DNA of 64,000 bases from positions 1-64,000 of the forward strand of contig NZ_VSMB01000017.1 of NCBI RefSeq assembly GCF_009805705.1, in the 5' to 3' direction. Positions within the stretch are counted from its first letter, which is position 1. The number at the start of each line of letters is the position of its first letter. Below the pieces are notes generated by a model that saw only the letters and a list, made by a program, of their open reading frames with translations, did no database searches and was not told where the DNA came from. Origin of the DNA: Ruania rhizosphaerae. GTDB taxonomy: Bacteria; Actinomycetota; Actinomycetes; Actinomycetales; Beutenbergiaceae. The translations under genes and the position numbers were made by a program. This document shows, one piece after another, positions 7,972 to 51,643 of this stretch.

Positions 7972-7992
7972 CGGTGCGGCCCGCCGTCTCGG

Positions 7993-8047
7993 TAGGCGCC
8001 ATGGTCCGTCGCTTCCACTGCGGGTTGGCGACGGATGGTGGCGCCTA
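7993..8047 (+). terminator. Long imperfect hairpin after oxidoreductase gene
   Basis: TAGGCGCCATGGTCCGTCG (7993-8011) and its near complement (8029-8047) form a stem of seven plus nine base pairs around a three-base mismatch, with a 17-nt loop. It begins 21 bp after the oxidoreductase stop. There is no T-run, but GC-rich hairpins without U-tracts are common terminators in actinobacteria. Confidence 0.55.
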
Positions 8048-8183
8048 GGACGCGGGGGTCTGTCAGGTGGGTGCCATCCTCTGTCGGTTCCGGGACCACA
8101 TACCGACGATGGGTGGCACCTCGCGGTGGGAGGGGGCACCCGGCATGATGGGAGCGAGGAGTCCCGACGGCGAGGAGCAAGCG

Positions 8184-9008: not shown

Positions 9009-9053
9009 GAGGACCTGCGCCGGAGATTGCCCGAACCGTTCCGCAAGGGTGAC

Positions 9054-10037
9054 TCACTCAGGGCCGGCGAACGGGAAGGGCGCGGCAGGCTCGAAGAGCG
9101 CTGACGCGTCGCCGCCCTGTGCCGGCGGCAGGCCCCCGGTGAGGTCGAGTTTCTGCGGTGACGCCGACTCGGAGAAGTCGAGGTCGCTCAGGTCGACCCA
9201 GATGACACTGGGCCAGAGCACCGAGTCGAAGTAGTACCGGCCATCCTTGTGGTCGGCCACGGTGCGCCACCGCGTGGAGGAGATGTTCGGCTGGCCCGGT
9301 GTGGTGATTCCGTACGGCACCGAAGCGTTGCGGATCACGCCGAACACGGCGGCCGTCGCAATGGTTCGGTCCTCAACCTGAGGGACGGCGTTGACGTAGA
9401 AGCTCGCCCGTACATACCGGTCGGCGGCACGATTGGTCCCGGGCATCATCACGGTGCCACCGATCTCGTCCCAGTAGCTGTTGATCGCGAGCTGCTGCGC
9501 ATAGGGCGGCGAGTTCGTCATCACCTGGTAGGACCGATCATGGTGGACCGTGAGCTCACCGTCGAGGTATTCGAAGATGGCGCTGTCGCCGCTCGAATCG
9601 GACAGGGCGAGGTGCATCGTGGCGTCCCGCTCCTGACCCGGCACGGTGGAGGTGGCGACGGTGAAGGTCTCGGCGGAGAGTTCCCTGACCGCCTCGGCGA
9701 CGGTCGCGAAGTTGTCGAGGGCGTACTGTGCCCATGCCGCGATCGAGAGTGTGGGCCGGCGTTCGTGCGGATCCGGGTACCTCGACTCAACCAGCCACAG
9801 AGCATTGGCGACGAGTCCCTTCTCGTTCATGCCATCGGCGGTTGCCAGCTCGTAGGCACTGGAGACGACACTGCCGTAGCGAGAGGTCCAGGTGATCGAG
9901 TGGGGGCCGGCGGCGCCATCGCGCTTCATCCCCCGGGGGAACAGCCAGATGTTGGTGCCCAGGTCCACGTTCCAGTCCATCGACCGCGCCGTGATGACGC
10001 GGTCACCTTCACCCAGGTAGACAACTCTCGTGCACAT
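9054..10037 (-). CDS. Ntn linear-amide hydrolase (choloylglycine/penicillin V acylase type)
   Basis: The true start is ATG at 10037, giving 327 residues beginning MCTR. Removal of Met exposes Cys2, the catalytic nucleophile of N-terminal-nucleophile choloylglycine-hydrolase-family enzymes. Further family marks are RSMDW near residue 20, the NEKGL motif in DGMNEKGLVANAL, and TNSPPY. Members cleave bile-salt amides, penicillin V or acyl-homoserine lactones; the substrate is not predictable. Minus-strand GGAAGGATC lies just before the start. No signal peptide is present. It is divergent from the LPXTG surface-protein gene, with 169 bp between. Confidence 0.92.
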   Translation of the reverse strand: MCTRVVYLGEGDRVITARSMDWNVDLGTNIWLFPRGMKRDGAAGPHSITWTSRYGSVVSSAYELATADGMNEKGLVANALWLVESRYPDPHERRPTLSIAAWAQYALDNFATVAEAVRELSAETFTVATSTVPGQERDATMHLALSDSSGDSAIFEYLDGELTVHHDRSYQVMTNSPPYAQQLAINSYWDEIGGTVMMPGTNRAADRYVRASFYVNAVPQVEDRTIATAAVFGVIRNASVPYGITTPGQPNISSTRWRTVADHKDGRYYFDSVLWPSVIWVDLSDLDFSESASPQKLDLTGGLPPAQGGDASALFEPAAPFPFAGPE

Positions 10038-10206
10038 CACGGGATCCTTCCGGTTGATGCGGGCGCAGGGCGCCAATGCTGTGCCCCCGACGGCATCCAG
10101 TCTTGCGCCACCGTGCGCCTCGATCAAGCCCAACGAGGACGTCGCATGCAGGGTGCGCTTCGGCCGAGGGCTAGAAGTTCGTCGACTCGTGCGCGAGGAT
10201 GCAGAG

Positions 10207-11652
10207 ATGCTGCACAAGCCGCGTACCCGCATGACGATGGCCGGAGGGCTCCTCGCTGCTGTTGGTGCCACCCTCCTGGTGGCCCAATCCGCTGTGGCCG
10301 CGCCAGGCGACACCATCGGACCGCTGAACCCGGTGACCTATCCGCTCGGGCAGTCGACGTCCGAGCGCCCCGCGAACAGTAATTTCCTGGTGTTCGTCGA
10401 AGGGGATGTGCAGCTGAACGCCGATGAAGCCGAAGGAACGATGGCTCTCGGTGGGGATCTGTTGTTCGCGTCCTCGTACAACGTCATGAGCCCACGTGAG
10501 ACCTTCACGGCGCCTGGCGACACTGTTCCGGTGGCCCTGTTCGTCGGCGGCGGAGTGGACTGGTCCGGCGGGCCCCAGGTGCTCTCGGTGCTCGGCGGTG
10601 GGTACGTGAAGATCGCTGACACCAGCACCTACGACGCCTTCAACACCGACTCGAACGGGGCGAACGTGAACGCCCGCGTCGTTCCGCCCGGGGCAAGCTA
10701 TGAATCGAGCCCGCCACGTATCGATCTCACCTCGCCGCAGTCGCCGGCCTCCATCAGCGCTCCCGTCTCGGCGGACCTGGTCGACATCGAGACCGCGTTC
10801 GAGCATTACCGGCCGACATCGACGTTGCTCGGTCAGTGCGCTCCCACCGTGCAACTGCTGAACCGCGACGACGGCTCCCCAGTCGCGTCCCCCCTCGCCC
10901 CTGGGGCTAACGTGCGCCTGCCGATCGAATCCGACCAGACCAACGTCCTGAACATCACCACCGATGACCTGGCGAACATCGCGGAGATCAGCTTTCCGGA
11001 CCCGCCCACCGCATCCTCACCGCTCCTGGTGAACGTCGTCGGCGCCTCGTTCGCGGGCGCGTTCCCGAACCAGGCCGGAGTCGGAGAGGCGGATGCGCCG
11101 TCGATCCTCTACAACTTCGTCGACGCGACCTCCGTCGTCGTCAATGGGGGCGACAGCGTGAACGGGACGATCTACGCGCCCCACGCCGTGCTCAACTGGC
11201 AGGTCACTCAGAACATCGCCGGGAACGTGATCGCCGCATCGTTCATCCATGGCATCCCGACTCAGGCTCCGCCGGGGGTGCCGCGCGAAGTGCATGACTT
11301 CCCGTTCGCCGCTGAGTTGACCTGCCGTGAGGCAGGTGCCACGCCCACGCCGACCCCCACCGTCACCGCCACCCCAACGCCCACGCCGACCCCCACCCCA
11401 ACGCCCACGCCGACCCCGACCCCCACTCCCACCCCGACCTCGGTACCCAGCCCCACCCCTGGGCCCTCGGCATCCCCTGGGCCGGTGGAGCCATCCGAGC
11501 CCGGAGGGGGCGACGGCCCCGGCACCCTGCCAGACACGGGCGGACCGATCGATGGGGTGACCGCGTCAACGGTCGGCCTCACGCTGCTCGCCGGCGGCTT
11601 GGTGCTCGTGGCTGCGGCTCAATTGCGGACGCGGCGCCGCGATCGGGTGTGA
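10207..11652 (+). CDS. Choice-of-anchor A surface protein with LPXTG sorting signal
   Basis: A 481-residue secreted protein. Residues 1-32 are a signal peptide (basic start, hydrophobic core, AVAA cleavage region). A choice-of-anchor A domain follows, to about residue 375 (FLVFVEGDVQLNADEAEGTMALGGDL and later GTIYAPHAVLNW are typical). A Thr-Pro repeat linker then spans the wall, and the end carries LPDTG (441-445), a hydrophobic helix and RTRRRD, a sortase anchor. GAGG at 10195-10198 supports the ATG at 10207. Its function is probably adhesive or structural; no ligand can be named. The last 34 bases overlap the convergent GH13 gene. Confidence 0.93.
   Translation: MLHKPRTRMTMAGGLLAAVGATLLVAQSAVAAPGDTIGPLNPVTYPLGQSTSERPANSNFLVFVEGDVQLNADEAEGTMALGGDLLFASSYNVMSPRETFTAPGDTVPVALFVGGGVDWSGGPQVLSVLGGGYVKIADTSTYDAFNTDSNGANVNARVVPPGASYESSPPRIDLTSPQSPASISAPVSADLVDIETAFEHYRPTSTLLGQCAPTVQLLNRDDGSPVASPLAPGANVRLPIESDQTNVLNITTDDLANIAEISFPDPPTASSPLLVNVVGASFAGAFPNQAGVGEADAPSILYNFVDATSVVVNGGDSVNGTIYAPHAVLNWQVTQNIAGNVIAASFIHGIPTQAPPGVPREVHDFPFAAELTCREAGATPTPTPTVTATPTPTPTPTPTPTPTPTPTPTPTSVPSPTPGPSASPGPVEPSEPGGGDGPGTLPDTGGPIDGVTASTVGLTLLAGGLVLVAAAQLRTRRRDRV
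11340..11455 (+). repeat. Thr-Pro coding microrepeat
   Basis: A tract of tandem ACGCCC/ACCCCC-type hexamers encodes about 18 Thr-Pro dipeptides in the surface protein's cell-wall-spanning linker. It is low-complexity DNA prone to length change by slippage; linker length may therefore vary between strains. Confidence 0.85.
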
Positions 11653-12956
11653 GGCGCCGCCACCCCCTTCGTCGAGGCAGCCGTCTCGGTGACCGCCCAC
11701 CCGTGCGGGCCGACCACCAGCTCCTCGCCATCCAGCCCGGCGTCGTGGCCGGCGAGGACGGTGCCCGCACCGGGGGTGCGTACCTCGCTGTCGCCGATAT
11801 TCAGACATACGATCAGCGCCTGGTCCGGGCCGGCCACCTCTAGGGCGATCGTGTCATTCCCGACGGCGACCGTCCGGCTTCGCGCGGTGTGTAGCCAGGG
11901 GTGCCGCCTGCGTAGGCCGATGAGCTCCTGGTGCAGGGTGAAGACCTCCGGCTTCGCGCCGTCGATCTCGTCGCGGCTGGCGCCGAAAGCGGGCCGGATG
12001 GCATCGTCCCCACCGAACCGCTCCTCCTTGACCGCCTGGAGGCCCAGCTCATCGCCGTAGTACACCGAGGGGGTCCCTCCGAGGGTGAACAGCAGGGCGA
12101 TCGCATGCGGGAGGTGACGCGCGTCCTCGACCTGGCTGGCGATCCGCGTGACGTCATGGTTGCCCACGAACGTGTAGGGCACGAAGGCGTCCAGGAAGGC
12201 GTTGTGCCGGCCGAGTGCGTGGTCGAGCTCGTGGAAGTTGCGGTCGGCGATGGAGTGCCAGATGCCTTGCCACAACTCGTACTGGGTGACGGCATCCAGG
12301 CCGCCGTCGCGGGTGAATGCGACGTAGTCGCCGTGCAGTACCTCACCCATCACGTAGACCTGCGGGTGGCGCTCGCGGACGGCGGGTAGCACCGTGGTCC
12401 AGAACTCCACCGGGACGCTGTAGGCGGCATCGAGACGCCACGCATCCACACCTCTGTCACACCAATAGGTCATGACATCAGTGACCAACGTGGCCACCTC
12501 GGGTGCGCCATGGTTCACCGTGATCAAGCCGCCGTGCCCCTCGAAGGTGACCGGTCCGCCGTCGGGGTTCTGCGCGAACAGGTGCGCCTCGGGGGAGGCG
12601 GGGTCCTCGCGGGCGGCGAGCAATGCCGGGAACTCGGGGCCGACATGATTGAACACGCCGTCGAGCATCACCTGGATTCCCCGGCTGTGGGCGGCATCGA
12701 TGAGTGCGACCAGATCGGCCTCGGTGCCCAGGCGCGGATCGATGCGGAAGTAGTCGATCGTGTCGTAGCCGTGCGTGGAGGACTCGAACACCGGTCCCAG
12801 TGCGAGCCCGTTCGCCCCCAGCTCGAGCAGGTGGTCCAGCCATCCGATCAGGGCGGGCAGCCGGGTGGCCGGAGTGCGGTCGGCGCCGGTGGTGTCCGTT
12901 CCCAGGAAGCCCAGAGGGAAGACGTGCCACCAGATGGTGTGCTCGGTGGAACTCAT
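11619..12956 (-). CDS. GH13 alpha-amylase-family glycosidase
   Basis: This 445-residue cytoplasmic enzyme has the complete GH13 signature: DGVFNHVG (region I, near 99-106), WRLDAAY with nucleophile D176, MGEV with acid/base E205, and FVGNHD with D268. There is no signal peptide, so it acts on imported or internal alpha-glucans, perhaps as a maltodextrin glucosidase or neopullulanase-like enzyme. A small C-terminal beta domain follows the barrel. The N-terminus (IWWHVFPLGF) is normal for the family. It stands alone; its promoter region contains a perfect 18-bp inverted repeat. Confidence 0.93.
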   Translation of the reverse strand: MSSTEHTIWWHVFPLGFLGTDTTGADRTPATRLPALIGWLDHLLELGANGLALGPVFESSTHGYDTIDYFRIDPRLGTEADLVALIDAAHSRGIQVMLDGVFNHVGPEFPALLAAREDPASPEAHLFAQNPDGGPVTFEGHGGLITVNHGAPEVATLVTDVMTYWCDRGVDAWRLDAAYSVPVEFWTTVLPAVRERHPQVYVMGEVLHGDYVAFTRDGGLDAVTQYELWQGIWHSIADRNFHELDHALGRHNAFLDAFVPYTFVGNHDVTRIASQVEDARHLPHAIALLFTLGGTPSVYYGDELGLQAVKEERFGGDDAIRPAFGASRDEIDGAKPEVFTLHQELIGLRRRHPWLHTARSRTVAVGNDTIALEVAGPDQALIVCLNIGDSEVRTPGAGTVLAGHDAGLDGEELVVGPHGWAVTETAASTKGVAAPHTRSRRRVRN

Positions 12957-12997
12957 ACGTCAACGTACAACGCGCCCGGGGGCGTCTGACATACCGC

Positions 12998-13047
12998 CGG
13001 CAGACTGACACACGGCTGGCCGGGGTGATCCGTGTGTCAGTCTGCCG
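12998..13047. repeat. Perfect 18-bp inverted repeat between divergent genes
   Basis: CGGCAGACTGACACACGG (12998-13015) and its exact reverse complement (13030-13047) flank a 14-bp loop. The element sits between the GH13 start (12956, minus) and the ArsR promoter (13085, plus), so it is upstream of both genes and cannot terminate either. Candidates are a large operator, a cruciform-forming element or a small mobile repeat. No coding frame uses it. Confidence 0.7.
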
Positions 13048-13072
13048 AACCTGCGTCAGCCGGTCACCGTAT

Positions 13073-13137
13073 TCAACCAAGAGGTTGACAGCGATCGAGT
13101 CCGTGCCTACGCTCGTCGTATTCAACCAATCAGTTGA
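13073..13137 (+). promoter_or_regulatory. Consensus promoter with two ArsR-type operators
   Basis: TTGACA (13085-13090) and TACGCT (13108-13113) are 17 bp apart, a strong sigma-70-type promoter. Two near-identical palindromes flank it: TCAACC-AAGA-GGTTGA (13073-13088, perfect) overlapping the -35 box, and TCAACC-AATC-AGTTGA (13122-13137, five of six) just after the start point. The next gene is an ArsR-type repressor, so autoregulation by two-site binding is the natural reading. Confidence 0.75.
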
Positions 13138-13150
13138 GGAGGCGAGTCTT

Positions 13151-13504
13151 GTGGCGGATCGGCTCTCCCACGTGTTCCAGGCACTCGCAGACGACACCCG
13201 GCGCGACATGGTCGCCCGGCTCGCCACTGGTGACGCGACGGTCGGGGAGCTCGCCGAGCCGTATGACATGAGCCTGCAGGCCGTCTCCAAGCACCTGAGG
13301 GTGCTCGAGGATGCCGGTCTGGTGAGCAGACGCAAGGAAGCGCAGAAGCGTCCTGTGCACCTGGAGGCGGAGGTGCTCGATCTGATGACCGGATGGATCG
13401 AGCGCTACCGGCGCCAGGCGGAGGAGCGGTTCCAGCGCTTGGACGCACTCTTGGCCGACATGGCCGACGACGAGAACCCACACCACGAAGGAGCAGCATC
13501 ATGA
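13151..13504 (+). CDS. ArsR-type winged-helix repressor
   Basis: The 117-residue protein has the metal-independent ArsR subgroup pattern: VFQALADDTRRDMVARL, then VGELAEPYDMSLQAVSKHLRVLEDAGLVSRR (helix-turn-helix) and a charged C-terminal helix. It lacks the cysteine metal site. The GTG start at 13151 has GAGGAGG eight bases upstream. Its stop overlaps the next gene's ATG (ATGA). ArsR-SRPBCC pairs are widespread; the SRPBCC protein is thought to bind a small hydrophobic ligand. The two palindromes upstream are its likely targets. Confidence 0.9.
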   Translation: MADRLSHVFQALADDTRRDMVARLATGDATVGELAEPYDMSLQAVSKHLRVLEDAGLVSRRKEAQKRPVHLEAEVLDLMTGWIERYRRQAEERFQRLDALLADMADDENPHHEGAAS

Positions 13505-13992
13505 GTACCACCACCCGCGAAGCGCAGATCGAGGCCGACCCCACCATCCCCGTCATCACCATCACCCGCGAGTTCGACGCCCCGCCCGAGCGCGTCTACC
13601 GCGCGTGGGCCGAGCCGGAGCTGGTGAAGCGGTGGATGGGCCCTCGGTCGGTCGAGATGGACATCGCGACATGGGATTGCCAGACCGGGGGCAGCTACCG
13701 CTACAACGCCATCCAGAACGGTGAGGTAGTGGCGCACTTCTTCGGCTGCTTCCACGACGCCATCCCGGGGGAGAAGCTCGTGCAGACCTTCGGGTTCGAG
13801 GAGATGCGTGACGCCGTCGCCCTGGAGATCATGACGTTCGAGCCGCTCGAGGGCGGCCGCACGCGGATCGTGTCCAAGTCGATCGTGGAGTCGATGGAGG
13901 CGCAGCAGGGCATGCTCGCCAGCGGTATGGAGGTCGGTATCAACGAGGGCTACGAGAAGCTCGACGAGCTGCTCGCCGAGGGCGCGGTGTGA
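13501..13992 (+). CDS. SRPBCC (AHSA1-like) protein
   Basis: 163 residues with the AHSA1/START-like opening TREFDAPPERVYRAWAEPELVKRWMGP and a later GGSYRYNA strand, typical of the SRPBCC helix-grip fold that binds small hydrophobic ligands. The biological ligand is unknown. It overlaps the ArsR gene by four bases and the following gene by four (GTGA), so the three form one translationally coupled unit. Confidence 0.9.
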   Translation: MSTTTREAQIEADPTIPVITITREFDAPPERVYRAWAEPELVKRWMGPRSVEMDIATWDCQTGGSYRYNAIQNGEVVAHFFGCFHDAIPGEKLVQTFGFEEMRDAVALEIMTFEPLEGGRTRIVSKSIVESMEAQQGMLASGMEVGINEGYEKLDELLAEGAV

Positions 13993-14537
13993 CTCCCGCA
14001 GAGGAGCATCGCCGGATCGCCGGGGTGTTCGCCGACCGGGTGCGTGGCACCCGGGACTGGGACGCCCCGGCCCCGGTGGGAGGCTGGACTGCTCGGGATG
14101 TGGTGCGTCACCTCCTCACCTGGTTCCCCGGATTCCTCAAGGCGGGGGCCGGGATCGAGCTGCCCGCCGGCGATGTGGATGCCGATCCCGTGGCTGCCTG
14201 GCAGGTACACGCCGACGGCGTGCAGGCACTGCTCGATGATCCGGCGACGGCGGAGCTCACCTTCTCCAATCCTCACACCGGGGAGCTTCCGCTCGCCCAG
14301 GCGATCGACCAGTTCTATACCGCCGACGTGTTCATGCACACCTGGGACCTGGCGCGTGCGACGGGGCAGGACGAAAGGCTGGATCCTGAGAAGTGCCGGG
14401 AGTTGCTCCGCGGGATGGAGCCGATCGAGGAGCTGATCCGCGCGAGTGGCCAGTACGGTCCGCGGGTGGACGTGCCGGAAGGCTCAGACGTACAGACGCG
14501 GTTGCTGGGGTTCATCGGGCGGGACCCGCTGGGCTGA
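13989..14537 (+). CDS. TIGR03086/DinB-like mycothiol-type protein
   Basis: A 182-residue member of the TIGR03086 family, related to mycothiol-dependent maleylpyruvate isomerase and DinB four-helix-bundle metal proteins. Marks are GGWTARDVVRHLLTWF near the N-terminus and DVFMHTWDLARATGQ near residue 115; the histidines H41 and H117 fit the expected metal ligands. The GTG start at 13989 overlaps the SRPBCC stop. It probably performs a thiol-linked transferase or detoxification reaction; substrate unknown. A short hairpin (GGTTGC to GCAACC, about 14589-14613) follows. Confidence 0.85.
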   Translation: MTPAEEHRRIAGVFADRVRGTRDWDAPAPVGGWTARDVVRHLLTWFPGFLKAGAGIELPAGDVDADPVAAWQVHADGVQALLDDPATAELTFSNPHTGELPLAQAIDQFYTADVFMHTWDLARATGQDERLDPEKCRELLRGMEPIEELIRASGQYGPRVDVPEGSDVQTRLLGFIGRDPLG

Positions 14538-14654
14538 GACCGCTACCGGTGGGTCCAGCAGGTGTGCCGGGGTCCATGCGCACGCAAGGTTGCGCTGCAC
14601 CCAGCAGTGGCAACCGTCGAGGCGACCGTGGTGTGCACGTGGGAGCATCGGGGA

Positions 14655-15578
14655 ATGTCGGAGATTCGCATCAGCGTGCAGGCCGAGCCTCGCGACCTCA
14701 ACTCCTGGCTGGCCCTGGCGCGCCGGCTGGAGGCGAGCGGATTCGAGGCGCTCCTGATGGGAGATCACCCGGGATCGGGGGCCTCGCCCTGGCCGGCGCT
14801 CGGCGCTGCCGCGGCCGTCACCTCGACGCTGCGGCTGGGGACGTGCGTGCTGCAGACGGGTGTCCGAGAACCTTTGCAGGTAGCCACGGACGCGGCGACC
14901 CTCGACGCCTTGGCGCCTGGTCGGGTGATTCTCGGCTTGGGTGCCGGGCACACGTTCCGAGAGTGGGAGGTGAGCGGCCGACGGTGGCCCTCGCCCGCCG
15001 ATCGGATCGGTCGCCTTGCCGAGTTCGTCCCGGCAGTGGCGCAGCTTCTCGACGGGGAGCATGTCACCGCGACGGGTCGATTCCTCGAGCTCGATGATGC
15101 CGTGCTCGAGGATGTGCCGGCCACCGGCAGGGTCCGGATCGCCGTCGGAGGGGCGCACCCGGAGTTGCTCCGGCTAGCGGCCCGTACTGCCGATGTGGTC
15201 GGTCTGAGCGGTCTCGGCCGCACGCTGCCGGACGGGCACCGTCACGAGGTGCGATGGAGTAAGGAGAAGCTCCGCGCGCAGCTGGCGATCGTCCAGGACG
15301 AGAGTGCGCGGACAGGGACGGCACCCGAGGTCGAGGCGCTCGTGCAGGTGGTGACAGAGACCGACGATCGCCGGGCTGTGCTGACCGAGCTCGCCGAGCG
15401 ACTCCCCGGTTCGACCGCGGACGACCTTGCCCAGGCGCCATTCCTCTTGGTGGGCACGCGTGAGGACATGGCCGCGCAGCTCAAGCGCCAAGCGCGAGAA
15501 CTGGGCATCGCGCGATACGTGGTCCGTGAATCTGCGCTGGTGACCATGGAGAAGGTCATCGCACTGCTCGATTCCTAG
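14655..15578 (+). CDS. LLM-class (luciferase-like) flavin oxidoreductase
   Basis: The 307-residue protein has the luciferase-like TIM-barrel pattern: LARRLEASGFEALLMGDHP, LGTCVLQTG, then DALAPGRVILGLGAGH, the classic LLM motif. Actinobacterial members usually use F420 or FMN. The ATG at 14655 aligns with the family's start; upstream in-frame sequence does not. The ribosome site is weak (GGGGA directly before). The last four bases overlap the convergent phosphotransferase gene. Confidence 0.88.
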   Translation: MSEIRISVQAEPRDLNSWLALARRLEASGFEALLMGDHPGSGASPWPALGAAAAVTSTLRLGTCVLQTGVREPLQVATDAATLDALAPGRVILGLGAGHTFREWEVSGRRWPSPADRIGRLAEFVPAVAQLLDGEHVTATGRFLELDDAVLEDVPATGRVRIAVGGAHPELLRLAARTADVVGLSGLGRTLPDGHRHEVRWSKEKLRAQLAIVQDESARTGTAPEVEALVQVVTETDDRRAVLTELAERLPGSTADDLAQAPFLLVGTREDMAAQLKRQARELGIARYVVRESALVTMEKVIALLDS

Positions 15579-42874: not shown

Positions 42875-42907
42875 GTAATCGATTACCGTCTACGGTTAAC
42901 CGTTAAC
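42875..42907 (+). promoter_or_regulatory. Palindromic operator cluster before the GntR-TTT operon
   Basis: GTAATCGATTAC (42875-42886) is a perfect 12-bp palindrome. Eight bases on, GGTTAACC (42894-42901) is a second palindrome, and GTTAAC is repeated at 42895-42900 and 42902-42907. The AT-rich cluster lies 35-67 bp before the GntR ATG (42942; GAGGAGG is the ribosome site). These are probably sites for the GntR/FCD protein itself or for a LacI-type activator/repressor. Confidence 0.6.
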
Positions 42908-42941
42908 GAGACATGATCGAGCTCAATGAGGAGGTCACTGG

Positions 42942-43652
42942 ATGGACAGCCGTAGCGCTTGGCGTGAGTCCGTCGCCGCCGTGCGCCCGGCCCCCGCGCT
43001 CGGCCAGCATGTGGTGGACCACCTGCGCCGCCTGATCATCACCGGTGAACTCCTTCCAGGCACGCACCTGGTGGAGGCGCAGCTGTCCGACACCTTCGAC
43101 GTCAGCCGCGGACCGATCCGGGATGCCCTGCGCCTGCTGGAGACCGAAGGGCTCGTGGAGTCCCGCCGTCGCGGAGTGTTCGTGATCGGCCTCAGCGTCG
43201 ACGACATCGACGAGCTCTACTCCCTCCGCCGGCTCATCGAGACCCGTGCCGTCGCCCTGTGCATGGAGGGTGCCGAGCGCGACTTCACGGCCGCCCGCGG
43301 TGCCATCGAGCAGATGGCCCAGGCTGCCGCCCGTCAGGACTCGGCCGACTTCGCCCGCGCAGATCTCGACTTCCACAGCGCCTTCTACACGGTCTCGGGG
43401 CACCGCCGCCTGGAATCGGTCTGGCTGCAGTACCGCCCGACCTTCGCCACCATGCTCTCGGTCACGAACGCCGAGGACCGGGATCTCGGCCCCACCTACC
43501 GCGATCACGTGAAGCTGCTGCAGAGGATCAGCGACCGCTCCACCGACGCTCTCGAGCTCCTGGACGAGCACCTGGAGGGCTCACGCCGACGCATGCTCAC
43601 CGCCTACACCCGCCACTTCGACACCACGTCAACGAAGGAGTTGTCCTCATGA
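42942..43652 (+). CDS. GntR/FCD regulator of the TTT operon
   Basis: 236 residues: an N-terminal GntR winged helix (DHLRRLIITGELLPGTHLVEAQLSDTFDVSRGPIRDALRLLETEGLV over residues about 26-73) and a C-terminal FCD effector domain with the metal-ligand pattern D-X3-H (RADLDFHSAFY) and later HVKLL and EHLEGS histidines. FCD regulators respond to organic acids and sugar acids. It overlaps tctC by four bases and heads the transporter operon. Confidence 0.93.
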   Translation: MDSRSAWRESVAAVRPAPALGQHVVDHLRRLIITGELLPGTHLVEAQLSDTFDVSRGPIRDALRLLETEGLVESRRRGVFVIGLSVDDIDELYSLRRLIETRAVALCMEGAERDFTAARGAIEQMAQAAARQDSADFARADLDFHSAFYTVSGHRRLESVWLQYRPTFATMLSVTNAEDRDLGPTYRDHVKLLQRISDRSTDALELLDEHLEGSRRRMLTAYTRHFDTTSTKELSS

Positions 43653-44614
43653 ACCGCACCCCCCGTATCGCCGCTACCGCCGCCCTGGCGGCCTCCGCCC
43701 TCACCCTCGCCGCCTGCAGCAGCGGTGGTGACGCCGGAGCGGACTCCGGAGCCTTCCCCGAGGAAGACATCACCCTGATCGTCCAGGCTGCGGCCGGTGG
43801 CGGCTCCGACCTCTCCTCCAGGGCGCTGGCCACCGAGCTGGAAGAGATCCTGGGAGTCTCCATCGTGGTGGAGAACCGGCCCGGAGCCTCCGGCTCCACG
43901 GCGATGCAGTACGTCGCCGACCAGGAGCCCGACGGCTACACGATCGGTTTCGTCCCCGTCGAGATTGCCATGCTCGGCCACCAGAACTTCGATGTGGACC
44001 CGGCCAACTACGATTTCCTCGGCCAGATCATGCTCGCTCCGGGCGTCATCTCGGTGCCCACCGACAGCCCGCATGAGACCCTCGACGACCTCGTCACCGC
44101 GGCGCAGTCCGAGCCGCTGTCCGTGGCCAACTCCGGCGCCGGTTCGATCTGGGAGGCGGCAGCGCTCGGCCTCGCGGACTCCTCCGGTGCCCAACTGACC
44201 TCGGTCCCGTTCGATGGTGGCGCCGAGGCGGTCACCGCAGTTATCGGCGGCCAGGTGGATGCCGCTGTCGGTGGCACCGGTGAGACCTCCGCCGCCTACG
44301 CCGACGGGCAGCTGCGCCCGCTCGCAGTGTTCCACGACGAACGCCACCCGGCGCTGGAGGACGTTCCGACCGCGGCCGAGGCCGGCTACGACCTGGAGTT
44401 CGGTGGCTGGGGTGGCATCTACGCTCCGCTCGACCTGCCGAACGAGGTCCGCGCCACGCTCGAGTCGGCGATCGAGGAAGCCGCTACCTCGGAGAGCTTC
44501 GTGAGCACGATCGAGAACACTGGCGCCATCGCGGTCTACAAGAACGCCGACGAGTTCACCGAGTTCGTCAACGCTGAGTACGAGCGCTTCGGTGGGCTGC
44601 TCGGAGACAGCTGA
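43649..44614 (+). CDS. tctC: TTT substrate-binding lipoprotein (TctC/Bug)
   Basis: 321 residues: a signal peptide with lipobox C23 (LTLAAC), then the Bug fold with ITLIVQAAAGGGSDLSSRALA, VENRPGASGSTAMQYVADQEPDGYTIGF and PTAAEAGYDLEFGGWGGIYAP, all classic family motifs. It captures an organic acid outside the membrane for the TctAB carrier. The substrate is unknown; gene context suggests a sugar acid. The stop codon overlaps the tctB start by one base. Confidence 0.94.
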   Translation: MNRTPRIAATAALAASALTLAACSSGGDAGADSGAFPEEDITLIVQAAAGGGSDLSSRALATELEEILGVSIVVENRPGASGSTAMQYVADQEPDGYTIGFVPVEIAMLGHQNFDVDPANYDFLGQIMLAPGVISVPTDSPHETLDDLVTAAQSEPLSVANSGAGSIWEAAALGLADSSGAQLTSVPFDGGAEAVTAVIGGQVDAAVGGTGETSAAYADGQLRPLAVFHDERHPALEDVPTAAEAGYDLEFGGWGGIYAPLDLPNEVRATLESAIEEAATSESFVSTIENTGAIAVYKNADEFTEFVNAEYERFGGLLGDS

Positions 44615-45117
44615 TGCAGGCATTGGAGCCCGGCCCGGCACCAGCGCCTGAGAACCAGGCACTGGTCGCCGGGTCGTCGCGGCGGCTGGAGATCATCTGC
44701 GCAGTGATCGCCATCGTGGGGAGTGCGCTGCTGGTGTTCGCGGCTCAGCAGATCGAGGTGCGTAACGAGACCGGCGGGATCGATCCTCGCTGGTGGCCCA
44801 CCGTCCTCGGCGCTGCCGCCCTCGCGTTTGGCGTCGTCCTCGCGGCGGTGGCCGTTCTGCGCCCGCCGTTCTCCCGGGACGAACTGGAATCCGCCACCCG
44901 GGCCGGATGGGTGCGGCTCGCCGTGTCCGTTGCCATCGCGATGGTCTACCTCGTCCTCTGGCCGTGGACCGGCTATCTGATCGCCACGTTGCCGATGCTC
45001 GTGGTCCTCACCTGGCTGTTCGGTGGTCGCGGCTGGAAAACTCTGGCTGTCTTCCCGGTGGTCATGACGGCTTTCACTTATGCCCTCTTCCACCTCGTCC
45101 TGAAGGTTCCGCTATGA
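44614..45117 (+). CDS. tctB: TTT small membrane subunit (TctB)
   Basis: 167 residues with four hydrophobic helices and the DUF1468/TctB pattern (GIDPRWWPTVLGAAALAFG in the first half). It has an Ala/Pro-rich cytoplasmic lead of about 25 residues. Together with TctA it forms the sodium- or proton-driven carrier. A compound hairpin (44629-44673) folds within codons 6-20. Confidence 0.9.
   Translation: MQALEPGPAPAPENQALVAGSSRRLEIICAVIAIVGSALLVFAAQQIEVRNETGGIDPRWWPTVLGAAALAFGVVLAAVAVLRPPFSRDELESATRAGWVRLAVSVAIAMVYLVLWPWTGYLIATLPMLVVLTWLFGGRGWKTLAVFPVVMTAFTYALFHLVLKVPL
44629..44673 (+). other. Compound hairpin at tctC/tctB junction
   Basis: Nested arms: CCCGGC (44629-44634) with GCCGGG (44668-44673), CCAG (44641-44644) with CTGG (44662-44665), and GCCTG (44646-44650) with CAGGC (44656-44660), loop of five. 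It starts 15 nt after the tctC stop. The position matches hairpins in both sugar ABC operons here and may set the binding-protein to membrane-protein ratio. Confidence 0.55.
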
Positions 45118-46625
45118 GTGCGTTCGCCGAGGGCCTCAATGCCCTGCTCGACCCGACGGTCGCCGTGTGCCTGCTGGTCGGCCTCCTCATCGGGACTTTG
45201 GTCGGGATGTTCCCCGGCGTGACGGGCTCGATGGCGGTGGCACTGGCTGCCGGGTTCACGCTCACACTCGAGCCCGTCCAGGGCCTTGCCGTGCTGCTCA
45301 CCATCTACGTGGGCGCCAACTACGGGGACCGCATCCCCGCGATCCTCGTCAACACCCCCGGCACGCCGGCCGCCATCGCCACCACCCTCGATGGCTATCC
45401 GCTGGCGAAACAGGGTAAGGGTGGCCTGGCGCTGGTGAGCTCGGCGATGGTGACCACCGGTGGAATCCTGCTCTCGGTGGTGGTGTTCATCTTCGCTGCC
45501 CGGCCGGTTGCCTCGATCGCCCTCGAATTCGGTCCGGCGGAGATGTTCGCTTTGGTGGTCTTCGGGCTGACGGTGATGATCTCGATTTCGTCCCGGTCCC
45601 TGCTCAAGGGGCTACTGGCAGGGATCGCCGGTCTTGCGATCGCGACCATCGGCCGTGACCCGATCACCGGGGACGAGCGTTTCGTCTTCGGCCTCAACGA
45701 CCTCAACAGCGGTCTGCCGTTCATCGCGGTGATCATCGGCCTGTTCGGTATCGCCGAGCTCTTCGACCAGCTCCTCACCCACCACCCCGGCACCGCCCAG
45801 ATCGTCTCCAGCCTCGGGCGCTGGTGGCCCACTCGCGCCGAGTACAAGCAGATGGCACGCCCGTTCGCCCTCTCCTCGGTGCTCGGTACCGTGGTGGGTG
45901 CGGTCCCGGCGGCCGGCGGTGACATCGCCGGGCTGATCGGCTGGGACCGGGCGAAGCGGATGTCCAAGCACCCGGAGAAGTTCGGAAAGGGCTCCCTGGA
46001 GGGCCTCACCGCTGCGGACACCGCCTCCTCGGCCACGCTCGGCGGCTCCCTCACGACCACCATGGCCCTCGGTGTCCCCGGCGACTCGGTGATGGCGGTG
46101 ATGCTCGGCTCGATGCTCATCTGGGGACTGCAGCCCGGACCGTCGATGTTCGTGCAGAGCCCTGAGCTGGTCGCCTCCATCGCCGGGATCATGATCATCG
46201 CCACGGTGCTCTCGCTCGGCATCAGCCTGGTGCGCAGCCAGGGCATGGTAAAGATCCTCGACCTGCCACGGCACTACATCTGGGTCGGCATCCTGCTGTT
46301 CTGCATCGTCGGCACCTACACCACGTCGAACAACATGTACACGGTCTGGGTGATGCTGCTCTCGGGTGTGGTGGGTGTGATCATGAAGCGCACCGGCTTC
46401 CCACCCGGCCCCGTCGTTCTCGGCCTGCTGCTCGGCCCGCTCGCGGAGTCGAACCTGCGCCGCGCGCTGCTCATTGACGGTCCCGCGTCGCTGGTGACTC
46501 AGCCGATCGCCGCGAGTCTACTGCTGCTCGCTGCCTTCTCCCTGGCGATGCCGCTGATCCGCCGGGCACGGGCCGCTCGCAGAGACGGAGCCCCACCGCA
46601 GCCGATTGAGGTGGACCGCACGTGA
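45114..46625 (+). CDS. tctA: TTT large membrane subunit (TctA)
   Basis: 503 residues with about twelve hydrophobic segments. The TctA signatures are clear: GLLIGTLVGMFPGVTGSMAVAL, GANYGDRIPAILVNTPGTPAAIATTLDGYPLA and the repeat-like ALGVPGDSVMAVMLGSMLIWGLQPGP. It is the main transport channel. It overlaps tctB by four bases and the next gene by four. The organic-acid substrate cannot be read from the sequence. Confidence 0.95.
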   Translation: MSAFAEGLNALLDPTVAVCLLVGLLIGTLVGMFPGVTGSMAVALAAGFTLTLEPVQGLAVLLTIYVGANYGDRIPAILVNTPGTPAAIATTLDGYPLAKQGKGGLALVSSAMVTTGGILLSVVVFIFAARPVASIALEFGPAEMFALVVFGLTVMISISSRSLLKGLLAGIAGLAIATIGRDPITGDERFVFGLNDLNSGLPFIAVIIGLFGIAELFDQLLTHHPGTAQIVSSLGRWWPTRAEYKQMARPFALSSVLGTVVGAVPAAGGDIAGLIGWDRAKRMSKHPEKFGKGSLEGLTAADTASSATLGGSLTTTMALGVPGDSVMAVMLGSMLIWGLQPGPSMFVQSPELVASIAGIMIIATVLSLGISLVRSQGMVKILDLPRHYIWVGILLFCIVGTYTTSNNMYTVWVMLLSGVVGVIMKRTGFPPGPVVLGLLLGPLAESNLRRALLIDGPASLVTQPIAASLLLLAAFSLAMPLIRRARAARRDGAPPQPIEVDRT

Positions 46626-47725
46626 GCACCCCACCCGGGCGGGTTCCGGACTTCCTCCGGCGCGAGTTCGTCGCCGTCGATCACCCTGCCTGGCGGCAGG
46701 CGCACGCCTCCAGCGTGCTGATGGCCGACGGCGCAGCCCTGGTTGCCTGGTTCGGTGGCACTCGGGAGGGCACACCGGACAACCGCATCTTCCTGGCCCG
46801 CCGGGATGCCGGCGCCTGGTCCACCCCCGAAGTGATCGCTGAGGGCGATGTGGCGCACTGGAACCCGGTGCTCGCTGCCGGCCCGGACGGCCAGACTTGG
46901 CTGTTCTTCAAGCGAGGCAGCCGGATCTCGACCTGGCGCACCTGGGTGCGACGCTCGGACGACGGTGGCCGCACCTGGTCCGAGCCCGCCGAACTCATCC
47001 CCGGTCCGGACGGTGCGGCGGGGCGCGGACCGGTGAAGAACCCACCCCTGTGGCTCCCCGGAACCTGGCTGGCACCCGCCTCGACCGAGACCTCAGGCAC
47101 CGAGGAGCCCGCCAGGTGGGAGCCGTTCGTGGACCGTTCCAGCGACAGCGGCCGCACCTGGACGCCCGTGCCGATCCCCGTGGACCGGACTGCTTTGCAT
47201 GGGCCGGGTCTGATCCAGCCGGCCCTCGTCGCCCGCCCCTGGGGGGTGCTGGCGCTGATGCGCAGCACCGAAGGCGTGGTGTACCGATCAGAGTCCACCG
47301 ACGGCGGCCGCACGTGGTCTCAGGCAGCACCCACCTCATTACCGAACAACAACTCTGGACTCACCGCCCTATCCCTGCCCGACGGGCTGGTGGCGTGCGT
47401 GCACAACCCGGTCTCTGGGGACTGGGCACCTCGGTGCCCGCTGGTGCTCTCGGTGAGCGAGGACGACGGGCACACCTGGTGGACCGCCGTCGTGTTGGAG
47501 GATGGACGTACGCCCGTGCACCCGGACCGGCCACCGCGCCTTCCGATGTCGGACCCGTTCGACGCAGCTGATGACGGCGTCCGCACCACCGGCGTGGGCG
47601 AGTACTCCTACCCGGCGGCCGTCCTGGACGGCCACGACTTGCACATCACCTACACCTGGCAGCGCCGCGGCATCGTCGCGGCGAGCCTGCCGCTCGAGAA
47701 AGCTCTAGGAAGGAACCTCGCGTGA
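46622..47725 (+). CDS. BNR_2 sialidase-like beta-propeller protein
   Basis: A 367-residue six-blade propeller with four Asp-boxes (SDDGGRTW 112-119, SSDSGRTW 173-180, STDGGRTW 225-232, SEDDGHTW 279-286) and the BNR_2 (PF13088) opening LVAWFGGTREGTPDNRIFLAR. No signal peptide or lipobox is present, so it acts in the cytoplasm on imported material, unlike secreted sialidases. The sialidase FRIP motif is not evident, so the true reaction is open: hydrolase or lyase on a sugar-acid glycoside. The GTG start overlaps tctA. Confidence 0.85.
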   Translation: MSTPPGRVPDFLRREFVAVDHPAWRQAHASSVLMADGAALVAWFGGTREGTPDNRIFLARRDAGAWSTPEVIAEGDVAHWNPVLAAGPDGQTWLFFKRGSRISTWRTWVRRSDDGGRTWSEPAELIPGPDGAAGRGPVKNPPLWLPGTWLAPASTETSGTEEPARWEPFVDRSSDSGRTWTPVPIPVDRTALHGPGLIQPALVARPWGVLALMRSTEGVVYRSESTDGGRTWSQAAPTSLPNNNSGLTALSLPDGLVACVHNPVSGDWAPRCPLVLSVSEDDGHTWWTAVVLEDGRTPVHPDRPPRLPMSDPFDAADDGVRTTGVGEYSYPAAVLDGHDLHITYTWQRRGIVAASLPLEKALGRNLA

Positions 47726-48594
47726 CCGCATCCCGTACCTGCTCCATCATCAGCGCCGTCCCCGTGCCGTTCGCCCCCGCCGGTGAGCTCGACCTCGACA
47801 CCTTCGCGGCGACCCTGCGCGGGATCGACGCACACGTGGACGGCGCGCTGATCGCCGGCACGACGGGCGAGTTCCCAGCGCTGGACGACGCCGAGCGGCT
47901 CGAGCTGTTCCAGGTCGGCGTGGACGTGCTCGGAGCCGACCGGGTGATCGCGCATCTCGGGCACGGCAGCAGCCGGCAGGTACTCCGGCTGGCGAACGGC
48001 ACCGCAGCGCTGGGCATCACCCGATTCGCCCTGCTCTCGCCGTACTACCTGCCCACCGACGACGATGGCGTGGTGGAGTTCTTCGCGGCCCTCTGCCGGG
48101 CGCACCCCACAGCGAGCGTCTATGCCTACCTGTTCCCGGAGCGGACCGGGATGGACATCTCCGCCGAGGTCCTCGGCCGGGTGATGGCATTGCCGGGCAT
48201 GGTCGGGGTGAAGCTCTCCGGTGGAGCCTCGGAGCAGATCGCCGAGTACGCCGCCGTGCTGCAGGATGGCCAGGAGCTCTACTCCGGCAACGACGCGACC
48301 CTGCCCGGCGTGCTGGACGCGGGCGGGACCGGTGTGGTCTCGGGGGTCTCCTCGGCCTTCCCGGAGACGTTCTCGAGGCTTGCCCAGGCCCTGCGGTCCG
48401 GGGACGAGCAGGAGATCGCCGCTACGCAGGCCGACGCCGCCGGTGCGGTGGCGCTCGCCGGTCCGAGTGTGACCCGGCTGAAGGTGGCCCTCGCCGCCCG
48501 CAGCGGTGCGCCATGGGCCAGCCGGATGGCGCTGCCAGCGGTCGATGACGTGACCCAGACGGAGATCAGGGCGGCGGTAGCACAGCACGGCTGA
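47722..48594 (+). CDS. DHDPS/N-acetylneuraminate-lyase-family aldolase
   Basis: 290 residues with the class-I aldolase pattern: AGTTGEFPAL near 45-54 (the GTTGE motif), Y134 in VYAYLFP and the Schiff-base lysine K164 in GVKLSGG. It should cleave or dehydrate a 2-keto-3-deoxy sugar acid. The GTG start overlaps the BNR gene by four bases. With the transporter and the BNR protein it outlines an import, processing and aldol-cleavage route for an unknown acidic sugar, perhaps related to sialic acid or another ulosonic acid. Confidence 0.88.
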   Translation: MTASRTCSIISAVPVPFAPAGELDLDTFAATLRGIDAHVDGALIAGTTGEFPALDDAERLELFQVGVDVLGADRVIAHLGHGSSRQVLRLANGTAALGITRFALLSPYYLPTDDDGVVEFFAALCRAHPTASVYAYLFPERTGMDISAEVLGRVMALPGMVGVKLSGGASEQIAEYAAVLQDGQELYSGNDATLPGVLDAGGTGVVSGVSSAFPETFSRLAQALRSGDEQEIAATQADAAGAVALAGPSVTRLKVALAARSGAPWASRMALPAVDDVTQTEIRAAVAQHG

Positions 48595-49174: not shown

Positions 49175-50398
49175 TCAGTTCTGTACGGCATCCCGCGCCG
49201 CCACGAACGCCGCGACGCACGCCTCGACATCCGCGGCTGAGTGTGCGGCCGAGAGTTGCACCCGGATCCGTGCCTTCCCCCGCGGCACCACCGGGAAACT
49301 GAACGCTGTCACGTACACCCCGTGGGCGAGCATGGCGTCGGCGATCTGGGCGGCGAGGGCGGCATCGCCGAACATCACCGGCACGATGGCGTGCTCCCCG
49401 GGAAGCAGGTCGAAGCCCGCCGCCGCCATGCGCTCTCGGAACAGCGCGGCGTTGGCGCCCAGCCGATCCCGCAGCTCGCCGGCGCCGCTGATCAGATCCA
49501 GTGCCGTCAGCGTCGCGGACACGATCGCCGGGGCCAGGGAGTTGGAGAACAGATACGGCCGCGCCCGCTGGCGCAGCAGCTCCACGATCTCGGCCCGCCC
49601 GGAGACGTATCCGCCGGAGGCACCGCCCAGCGCCTTGCCGAAGGTTCCCGTGGTCAGGTCCACCCGGTCAGACACGCCGGCATGTTCCGGAGTCCCCGCC
49701 CCTGTCGGCCCCATGAACCCGACGGCGTGGGAGTCGTCCACCATCACCAGCGCACCGAACTCTTCGGCCAGATCGCAGATCTGGGCCAGTGGCGCCAGGT
49801 AGCCGTCCATGGAGAACACGCCATCGGTGACCACCAGAATCCGCCGCGCTCCGCCCTCCTTCGCCCGGGTGAGCTGCGCCCGCAGATCAGTCATATCCCG
49901 GTTCGCATACCGGAACCGTGCCGCCTTGCACAGCCGGATCCCGTCGATGATCGAGGCATGGTTGAGCTCGTCGGAGATCACTGCGTCCTCGGCACTGAGC
50001 AGCGTCTCGAAGACTCCGCCGTTGGCATCGAAGCAGGAGCCGAACAGGATCGTGCCCTCAGTGCCCAGGAACTGCGAGACCCGTCGCTCCAGCTCCAGGT
50101 GCAGATCCTGGGTGCCGCAGATGAACCGCACCGATGCCATCCCGAAACCGCGCTCGTCCAGTGCCCGGTGGGCTGCGGCGATGATGTCCGGGTGCCCGGC
50201 GAGCCCGAGGTAGTTGTTCGCGCAGAAGTTGAGCACCTCGGCAGGTGCGTTCGCCGTCGCTGCGGAAGGGCCGCCGTCGGGAGGGGAGGCCAGCACATGC
50301 GCGGACTGGGGCGAGGCGATGGCCCGCTCGTGCTTGTACAGCCCGGACGAGCGCAATTCGTCCAGCTCGGCGCGCAGATCCTCAGCGATCGTGTACAT
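49175..50398 (-). CDS. kbl: Glycine C-acetyltransferase (2-amino-3-ketobutyrate CoA ligase)
   Basis: 407 residues of the PLP alpha-oxoamine synthase family: [35 protein letters not shown] (PLP ring stacking and aspartate) and the Schiff-base lysine in [15 protein letters not shown]. It converts 2-amino-3-ketobutyrate and CoA to glycine and acetyl-CoA. It follows tdh by nine bases, so both steps of threonine breakdown are cotranscribed. Length and motifs match Kbl; 8-amino-7-oxononanoate synthase is excluded by the tdh context. Confidence 0.95.
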
Positions 50399-50407
50399 CG
50401 GTGCTCC

Positions 50408-51463
50408 TCACAACCTCGTCCAGTCCAGCACGACCTTGCCGCTCGTGGCCGACTTCGCGGCCGCGAACCCCGCTTCCCACTGCGACGCCGGGAGCCGGTC
50501 GGTCACCACCGAGGTGACGGCGTCGAGCAGCCACTCGGAGGTCTGCAGCATCGAGCTCATCGCGTTCCACGTCTCGAACATCTCCCTCCCGTAGATCCCC
50601 TGCAGTGTCAGCATCTGGGTGACCACCAGCGACCAGTCCATGTCGATCGGTTCGCTCGGTAGCCCCAGGATGGCGATCTTCCCCCCGTGGTTCATCACGG
50701 TGATCATCTCCGGCAGGGCACTGGGGTGGCCCGACATCTCCAGCCCGACGTCGAAGCCCTCCCGCAGGTGCAGCAGTTCCTCGGCACGATTGACCGGAGT
50801 GGTGGAGACATTCAGCGCCAGATCCACGCCCATCCGTTCGGCCAGCGCCAGCCGCTCGGGGGAGACGTCGGTGATAGCGACGTACCGGGCACCGGCATGG
50901 CGTACCACCGCCGCGGCCATCAGCCCGATCGGCCCGGCGCCGGTGATCAGCACATCCTCGCCGACCACGCCGAACTTCAGCGCGGTGTGCACCGCGTTGC
51001 CGAAGGGGTCGAAGATGGCGCCGAGCTCCGGGCTGACGGCGTGGCCTCCCTCGCGGGTGTGGGACCACACGTTCTCCTGCGGGATCACCACGTACTCGGC
51101 GAAGGCACCGTCGCGTTGCACGCCGATCGAGATGGTCCGGATGCACAATTGCCGCCGGCCGGCCCGGCAGTTGCGGCACATCCCGCACACAATGTGCCCC
51201 TCACCGGAGACCAGCTCACCGACCTCGACGTCGTGGATCATGTCTCCGACCGCGACGACCTCGCCGTAGAACTCGTGCCCGGGGATCATCGGCGACGTCA
51301 CCATCGAGGCAGCCCAGTGATCCCAGTCGAGGATGTGCAGGTCGGTGCCGCAGATGCCGGTGGTGTGCACGCGGATCTTCACCTCGTGCGGGCCGGGCTC
51401 CGGCTCGGGTCGGTCAACGAGCTCCAGCCCGGGGTGAGGGCCGGTCTTATACAAGGCCTTCAT
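50408..51463 (-). CDS. tdh: L-threonine 3-dehydrogenase
   Basis: 351 residues of the zinc medium-chain dehydrogenase family. Catalytic zinc ligands lie in GICGTDLH and GHEFYGE; the structural zinc has four cysteines ([15 protein letters not shown]); the NAD fold carries [10 protein letters not shown]. It oxidises L-threonine to 2-amino-3-ketobutyrate, which Kbl cleaves. AGGAGG lies ten bases before the ATG at 51463. Upstream (51490-51506) the imperfect palindrome GATAGTGGAACGCTATC may hold an operator. Confidence 0.95.
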
Positions 51464-51643
51464 TCTTGGCGTTCCTCCTGGGTTGTCCAGATAGTGGAAC
51501 GCTATCAAGGGTGCGGGTAGTCGTCCGATTCCGGCCAGGCAGGGGGACCGGCGGTAGGTGGAGCGGGCCGGGTGGTGGACGATCCTCTCGTCGGGGACTG
51601 CTACCCATGGGCGACCGGCAGCGGTGCGGGCTAGCGTGGAGGA

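Follow-up and report, generated by a model that had tools for sequence, protein, structure and literature searches.

A Kdo (3-deoxy-D-manno-oct-2-ulosonic acid) aldolase was reportedly purified from Aerobacter cloacae by Ghalambor and Heath in 1966; we take this activity to be EC 4.1.2.23, and we know of no sequence for it. The same EC number stands in the table of a 2007 orphan-enzyme survey, where it is marked "difficult" (PMC1940265). Kdo is described as a lipopolysaccharide constituent in most Gram-negative bacteria (PMC3967223), and in plants it is described, together with 3-deoxy-D-lyxo-heptulosaric acid (Dha), as confined to rhamnogalacturonan II (RG-II) of pectin (PMC12168206). Lyases of N-acetylneuraminic acid (Neu5Ac) are reported to make Kdo from pyruvate and D-arabinose, at 1-1.5% of their activity with N-acetylmannosamine (PMC4016182). 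Judged by titles and abstract openings of the papers listed, and with subscription papers mostly outside its scope, our literature search found nothing on Kdo catabolic genes; on the same titles and openings it found nothing on the system described here, and the term heptulosaric acid was not found. That system is a six-gene operon of Ruania rhizosphaerae which joins a tripartite tricarboxylate transporter (TTT) to a sialidase-fold BNR_2 protein and an aldolase of the DHDPS superfamily. It lies in the first 64,000 nucleotides of contig NZ_VSMB01000017.1 (assembly GCF_009805705.1), a stretch referred to as a whole as the window. With moderate confidence, we propose that the operon imports and degrades Kdo, free or as a small ketoside.

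The six open reading frames (ORFs) occupy 42942-48594 of the + strand with successive overlaps of 4, 1, 4, 4 and 4 bases, and their Pfam order is GntR with FCD, TctC, TctB, TctA, BNR_2 and DHDPS. Together with a candidate operator, the features are as follows.

42892..42903, strand not assigned: candidate GntR operator, the palindrome ACGGTTAACCGT, conserved upstream of GntR or BNR genes
42942..43652, + strand: GntR/FCD-family regulator (Pfam GntR 1.3e-17, FCD 2.9e-18)
43649..44614, + strand: TctC substrate-binding protein of the TTT (PF03401, 8.9e-43)
44614..45117, + strand: TctB small membrane subunit (PF07331, 4.3e-17)
45114..46625, + strand: TctA large membrane subunit (PF01970, 2.3e-133)
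46622..47725, + strand: BNR_2 sialidase-fold protein, cytoplasmic, proposed Kdo (ulosonate) ketosidase (PF13088, 2.9e-64)
47722..48594, + strand: DHDPS-superfamily Schiff-base aldolase, proposed Kdo aldolase (PF00701, 8.5e-37, 126.9 bits)

None of the six proteins passes an NCBIfam cut-off, while TctA, TctB and TctC are all above their Pfam cut-offs. An earlier reading of the bare sequence (the sequence-only reading) had taken the overlapping genes as one unit, and coordinates, Pfam matches and the order kept in relatives agree with it: the six genes form one predicted transcription unit. Its start at 42875 takes in the operator region, however, and the first gene begins at 42942. Close BNR orthologs (E < 1e-100) occur in four of 396 genomes of the order, namely the window's own (G000), G005, G008 and G009, and gene order is the same in the last three as far as their contigs extend (that of G008 stops at TctC, with GntR thus outside view). 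Isoptericola halalbus (L060) keeps the complete set, with a BNR protein 63% identical to that of the window and with a FucI-like isomerase gene and a LacI gene divergent from the set. The same order in all these relatives argues that the arrangement is not due to chance. A single-sequence scan of genome contigs gave 92 stretches, none of which was confirmed. The flanks differ in theme from the operon: upstream, in the opposite orientation, is an S9 oligopeptidase, and downstream are a glyoxalase-like gene and the Kbl/Tdh threonine genes; this threonine-degradation pair (49175-51508, minus strand) exceeds its NCBIfam cut-offs and is ordinary. In G005, the nearest relative, the BNR gene (L033) lies in two overlapping frames, 8172-9149 and 8441-9265, whose parts are 88-89% identical, an apparent frameshift or sequencing error.

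The case for Kdo draws on the genes that accompany BNR in relatives. A profile scan of named genomes and one peptide pattern gave at least 80 BNR loci, of which the 78 with an anchor ORF were used (L101 and L118 were left out for want of one); the near-copies L069 and L085 are both counted, and ORFs were called as longest frames in high-GC loci, with some N-termini too long. Within 8 kb of BNR in these 78 listed loci there is a DHDPS gene in 29, an L-fucose-isomerase-type gene in 14 and an FGGY kinase gene in 14. The isomerase accompanies 13 of the 29 loci with DHDPS against one of the 49 without, and the kinase does so in the same proportions (13/29 and 1/49). Seven of the 13 isomerase loci are from Proteus, and with Proteus counted once the comparison becomes 7/23 against 1/49 (Fisher 0.001, phylogeny ignored). 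The linkage that the sequence-only reading had left to be checked is therefore conserved, within the order (G005, G008 and G009), in L060 and, as a BNR/DHDPS pair, in those 29 loci.

Individual loci show what the partners are. In Paenibacillus thalictri (L103) BNR is followed by the aldolase, FucI (TIGR01089, 1040.6 against a cut-off of 850) and a ribulokinase (TIGR01234, 732.1 against 583.25). The order in Anaerovirgula multivorans (L114) is BNR, aldolase, TctCBA, IclR, isomerase and ribulokinase (748.7 bits), the isomerase being assigned by the sequence cluster it shares with the L103 FucI. No fuculose-phosphate aldolase was noticed in L103 or L114, though no search was aimed at one. A Klebsiella plasmid (L048) has an FGGY pentulose kinase (TIGR01315, 564.3 against 408.7), a FucI-like isomerase, the aldolase, BNR and a major facilitator superfamily (MFS) carrier, along with LacI; Proteus has the same first four genes and then TctCBA, and a Martelella plasmid holds DHDPS, BNR and TctCBA together. 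The Klebsiella set (2734-15055) is flanked by two IS5-family transposase genes, with IS110 beside LacI, and the plasmid is typed as conjugative. FucI is described as acting on D-arabinose/D-ribulose and on L-fucose/L-fuculose (PMC6894278), and its pairing with ribulokinase in L103 and L114 fits D-arabinose. The isomerase and kinase partners in relatives thus point to a pentose as the aldolase product, most simply D-arabinose, and hence to Kdo as the substrate. The sequence-only reading could name no substrate, but Kdo is now the best candidate, since an isomerase and a kinase, both missing from this operon, are present in relatives.

We infer from these comparisons the substrate of each enzyme, the form transported and the kinase serving in this genome, and the pathway would run as follows. 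TctCBA would import Kdo, free or as a small ketoside, and from the ketoside the cytoplasmic BNR_2 protein would release Kdo much as a sialidase does, though with changed catalytic residues. The aldolase, through a Schiff base on K164, would split Kdo into pyruvate and D-arabinose. Conversion of D-arabinose to D-ribulose and then ribulose-5-phosphate would fall to a FucI-like isomerase and a pentulose kinase whose genes lie outside the operon, elsewhere in the genome.

Two types of isomerase appear in these loci. The L103 protein has all FucI domains in addition to TIGR01089, whereas the FucI-like type matches Fucose_iso_C only (cut-off 29.3), above it in L057 (34.8) and below it in L048 (23.8). 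Aligned with FucI by hhalign (94.5%, 8e-8), the FucI-like type shows the Glu, Asp and His metal-ligand motifs, matched by eye to the ligands named for FucI in PMC6894278. A model of the L060 protein (pLDDT 76.8) gave 41 Foldseek matches at E <= 0.001, all of them fucose, D-arabinose or L-arabinose isomerases, at TM 0.38-0.45 and rmsd > 20, while phmmer found no match for a FucI-like protein in the PDB. On these profile and fold comparisons the FucI-like protein is a remote homologue of FucI. Of the 396 genomes in the order, 17 have the window-type aldolase (E <= 1e-45), 46 the FucI-like protein (E <= 1e-60) and 14 both (G008, G328 and G341 have the aldolase without a FucI-like match); by their coordinates the two lie within about 3 kb of each other in six of the 17 (G131, G214, G335, G344, G361 and G391). 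Two operons, L195 and L196, consist of GntR, TctC, TctB, TctA, DHDPS, FGGY and FucI-like genes with operator-like sites and no BNR match, a LacI-like gene being interposed in L195. L193 has a similar BNR-less set without a recognised kinase, and L192, L194 and L197 have sugar ATP-binding cassette (ABC) permeases in place of Tct. This suggests that carrier, aldolase, isomerase and kinase are the core and BNR an add-on, as would be expected if BNR merely widens the diet to ketosides.

The carrier also varies between loci. In the window, TctC begins with a lipobox-like LTLAAC (by eye) and TctA is 39% identical to that of the Proteus BNR operon. A TTT is present in ten of the 78 listed loci, in Isoptericola, Anaerovirgula and seven Proteus, all with DHDPS, and in Treponema socranskii without it. 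More widely, loci with BNR and aldolase together are found in Actinomycetota, Bacillota and Pseudomonadota, and their carriers are of the TTT, MFS or ABC type; the place of TctCBA in Proteus is taken by the MFS carrier in Klebsiella, and in Nonomuraea a carrier 53% identical to the Klebsiella one stands beside DHDPS, BNR and FucI-like genes. That two aldolase clades (below), two isomerase types and several carriers appear to serve the same plan is convergence. The sequence-only reading had called the pairing of a TTT with BNR_2 unusual: the BNR_2/aldolase pair is not rare, but the TTT is only one of several carriers. Of that reading as a whole, the single unit, the uptake of an acidic sugar or ulosonic acid with Schiff-base aldol cleavage, and the departure from sialic-acid metabolism are retained, whereas the unnameable substrate and the rarity of the pairing are given up.

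We turn to the BNR_2 protein and its predicted role. Its AlphaFold 2 model (pLDDT 91.8) finds GH33 sialidases as best PDB matches in Foldseek, at about 17% identity and TM 0.73 (1wcq, 5.2e-15; 1eus, 9.0e-15), and as the sequence-only reading had noted there is no signal peptide, the start lacking a hydrophobic stretch by eye. Plasmid records label such proteins exo-alpha-sialidase or sialidase family protein. The residues that we take to be catalytic in sialidases were located by hhalign against four FRIP/YRIP sialidase-like proteins of the order (L213-L216; 99.4%, 3.7e-21), two further loci of the six, L211 and L212, being excluded for want of a FRIP-type motif. R214 and R271 fall on two arginines of the triad, Y330 on the catalytic Tyr and Q199 on the position of the catalytic Glu, and an ungapped four-residue extension of the alignment puts H28 at the first (FRIP) Arg. 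At the Asp acid/base position a gapped alignment places R48, with the invariant E49 adjacent. Profile alignments to PDB entries, read by eye, support the placing of Q199 and R214 for several sialidases and that of R271 for 9db6; NanC has Tyr at both 328 and 330, of which only 330 is invariant in the BNR set. H28, E49, Q199, R214, R271 and Y330 are invariant in 62/62 aligned rows (the window and 61 of 89 collected BNR stretches, near-copies and some second copies having been omitted by hand). In a second alignment that includes three more distant members, all of these but Q199 are kept in 10/10, and Q199 in 8/10 with His in the other two. The protein therefore has the sialidase propeller fold but neither the complete arginine triad nor the Tyr with its Glu base, and the full sialidase site that the sequence-only reading wished to see checked is absent. 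On these alignments the active site is conserved, but it is not that of a standard sialidase.

These replacements, constant throughout the alignment, raise the less likely alternative that the pathway is the same and BNR_2 acts instead as an anomerase or mutarotase, like the propeller NanM, or as a lactonase that readies free Kdo for the aldolase. NanM is a propeller mutarotase, and an operon without an aglycone-degrading gene, with a BNR_2 protein lacking a signal peptide, would suit such a role. However, the sialidase-site Tyr and two Arg are kept, operons without BNR exist, and an anomerase family is already represented at some loci. YhcH/DUF386 genes, of the family described as that of the Neu5Ac anomerase (PMC8141875), lie within 8 kb of BNR in 6/78 listed loci, and in L069, L078 and L085 the distance is at most 3 kb; the L069 protein passes the cut-off of the YhcH family and scores 119/160 bits for the anomerase equivalog. 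The role that we predict for BNR_2 is hydrolysis.

Several observations weigh against Kdo catabolism as the function of the operon. In 49 of the 78 listed loci DHDPS is absent from the 8 kb around BNR, and some of these loci include GH29, GH95 or GH78 genes. Eleven more distant BNR loci (L036-L046), from relatives of the window, gave no match to GntR or Tct and, for DHDPS, one weak match in L042; the BNR family is therefore wider than Kdo. In 32 of the 46 genomes with a FucI-like protein there is no aldolase match at 1e-45, and this isomerase must have other roles, while G008 (an 89%-complete assembly) has no FucI-like match. The window's own genome has a FucI-like gene, 84% identical to that of Isoptericola, on contig C41 near LacI genes, with no operator near it in the stretches scanned; as it is unlinked and lacks an operator, we infer its part in the pathway here. 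No gene of this genome passes TIGR01315, the best scoring 249.6/408.7. Lastly, R141 of the aldolase occupies the position of DapA R138, which in that enzyme binds the carboxylate of aspartate semialdehyde, and the aldehyde half of Kdo has no carboxylate. Apart from these points, C41 has apparent araBA, sugar ABC, FucI-like and rhaI/rhaD/rhaB genes close together at about 155000-192000 (L148, L149; names by eye).

Besides R141 the aldolase has K164, Y136 and TTGE at 47-50, and K164 and Y136 align with DapA K161 and Y133, which confirms the Schiff-base lysine of the sequence-only reading. Pfam domain and catalytic Lys/Tyr place it among the Schiff-base enzymes of the DHDPS superfamily; its NCBIfam scores fall short of the equivalogs for DapA (113/206.15 bits) and NanA (49/382 and 57.6/281 bits). 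In a tree of 54 of 71 rows (repeat loci omitted), BNR-linked aldolases fall into two distinct clades, one of 17 rows and one of 27, both at 100/100. Because the three references from E. coli sit on long branches, we use this tree solely to separate the two clades from each other and NanA from both. The window type has TTGE, Y and K as active-site words and the other (K) type QSSE, YECP and K, and both clades accompany isomerase and kinase genes. A tblastn search of plasmids with the window aldolase gave 189 records, two of them with 80% cover and all below 60% identity.

Since the substrate of DapA is a C4 semialdehyde acid, R141 could speak for Dha, with a C4 acid product, as the aldolase substrate in place of Kdo, which we consider improbable. 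A second branch of loci gives this idea some substance. Distant BNR_2 genes on alphaproteobacterial and Burkholderiales plasmids (L220, L221, L222, L218 and L052) are found with DHDPS, Fe-alcohol dehydrogenase and PdxA. A four-carbon acid sugar kinase is annotated in three of the five (Methylobacterium, Roseicitreum and Rhizobium), Azospirillum has a nucleotide-binding protein in the place of the kinase, and Caballeronia lacks a separate kinase but has one 2.3 kb gene annotated as PdxA. Such a set would fit a C4 acid, and the branch is a candidate Dha or C7-ulosonate pathway. These loci are a few picks from 311 plasmid records and imply no frequency. However, queries for the four-carbon acid sugar kinase and PdxA match none of the 78 listed loci of the closer branch within 8 kb, and the Rhizobium BNR (L052), linked to that kinase, has T in place of K97 and H in place of Q199; two further distant rows deviate at one or both of these positions. 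The DapA-like Arg is kept in 15 of 17 window-type rows, including L193-L196 beside FucI-like genes, and window-type aldolases accompany FGGY genes as well; R141 as a sign of Dha for the window is weakened by these pentose partners.

The two branches together allow a broader and more tentative proposal, on which we would not yet rely: BNR_2 may be a new class of cytoplasmic ulosonate ketosidase, with a Kdo branch marked by pentose isomerase and kinase partners and a Dha branch marked by four-carbon acid partners, both substrates being RG-II acids, and the two DHDPS clades may be the orphan Kdo aldolase genes. Other members of the family have different surroundings. Pantoea piersonii has BNR, YhcH, a short-chain dehydrogenase/reductase and a symporter, with no DHDPS in the stretch viewed, and a Paraburkholderia BNR locus has none of the second-branch set, showing sugar ABC genes without PdxA. 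Eleven Paenibacillus loci (L068, L082, L086, L089, L090, L092, L095, L098, L099, L107 and L110) carry two distinct BNR_2 proteins separated by a few kb, among proteins of sequence clusters represented by GH95, GH29, GH78 and MGH1-like enzymes, and with DHDPS in the stretch only in L082, L090 and L092. On a Pandoraea plasmid (L047, 8992-10029) a BNR_2 gene near the Klebsiella type lies among hypothetical proteins with no annotated aldolase or carrier adjoining.

Kdo also has to be set against routes from other acidic sugars. A uronate pathway, in which the DHDPS protein would act as dehydratase or as 2-keto-3-deoxygluconate (KDG)-type aldolase and BNR as a lyase or hydrolase on uronides, is very unlikely. 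The superfamily holds KdgD and KDG aldolases, to both of which the protein has NCBIfam matches well below cut-off, and rhamnosidases lie near some BNR loci; however, the six genes, to which the look for uronate functions was confined, include neither a uronate isomerase or dehydratase nor a KDG kinase, and the pentose partners would be left unexplained. We rejected the KdgD/uronate route on this absence within the operon. Ordinary Neu5Ac catabolism with an unusual carrier, suggested by the sialidase fold, by a superfamily that includes NanA and by the weak NanR match of the regulator, is hardly credible given the low NanA scores and separate clade of the aldolase, the altered sialidase site, the absence of NanE and NanK from the six genes (as the sequence-only reading had held) and their near-absence from the 78 listed loci (NanE 0; NanK 1, not within 5 kb).

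Kdo degradation as proposed would be controlled by the GntR regulator through the ACGGTTAACCGT candidate operator. The regulator is below every NCBIfam cut-off (NanR, for example, 58.1/260 bits), and its effect on the operon is a prediction from the conserved site. The 12-base ACGGTTAACCGT palindrome, whose wider form is approximately GTTRACNGTTAACNGTYAAC, also stands 5' of GntR in G005, L060 and L058, and G009 has the variant AACTGTTAACAGTT there. In L060 it lies between the LacI/FucI-like genes and the GntR-Tct-BNR-DHDPS set. A Streptomyces locus (L057) has two exact copies before BNR (followed by FucI-like), one at the 5' end of the DHDPS frame and an additional site with two mismatches 5' of GntR, and L056 has an exact copy upstream of BNR. 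Sites like GTTAACNGTTAAC, with one or two mismatches, lie close to the regulator or to the operon's first gene in L059, L061 and L192-L197 (L061 and L192 having one site each, with one mismatch), and sites like GTTRACTGTTAACAGT lie by GntR or between it and the next gene in L059 and L193-L197. A scan of L034 (G008) found no site. A 25-base form derived from the sites of the window and of G005 has one match in the window's own genome at up to three mismatches, and its control none.

If the Kdo proposal is true, there would be testable genes for a Kdo carrier, ketosidase and aldolase, the last for a long-orphan activity, as well as a guess at the ligand of a TTT and a function for BNR proteins labelled sialidase in plasmid records. 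A comparable carrier is the TTT for alginate oligosaccharides of Vibrio sp. C42 (PMC13390454), which indicates that a TTT can take acidic oligosaccharides; its cargo is unsaturated uronides, whereas ulosonates are proposed here. Removal of Kdo is also described for HP0579/HP0580 of Helicobacter, a two-gene system that modifies lipopolysaccharide (PMC5371381). GH33 exo-sialidases share with BNR_2 the propeller fold, the Tyr and two Arg, but BNR_2 has His for the first Arg, Gln for the catalytic Glu and no signal peptide. The known D-arabinose route by FucI (D-arabinose isomerase) and ribulokinase uses the same isomerase and kinase families as L103 and L114, but here the genes adjoin an aldolase that would supply D-arabinose inside the cell, by the reaction proposed for Kdo aldolase, EC 4.1.2.23. 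The overall plan is like that of the E. coli nan operon (nanATEKQ), with import of a ulosonic acid, Schiff-base cleavage to pyruvate and an aldose and, in some loci, a partner of an anomerase family; in contrast to nan, the aldolase here is not NanA, there is no NanE, the carrier is a TTT, a sialidase-fold protein works in the cytoplasm and, in relatives, a pentose isomerase and a pentulose kinase complete the set.

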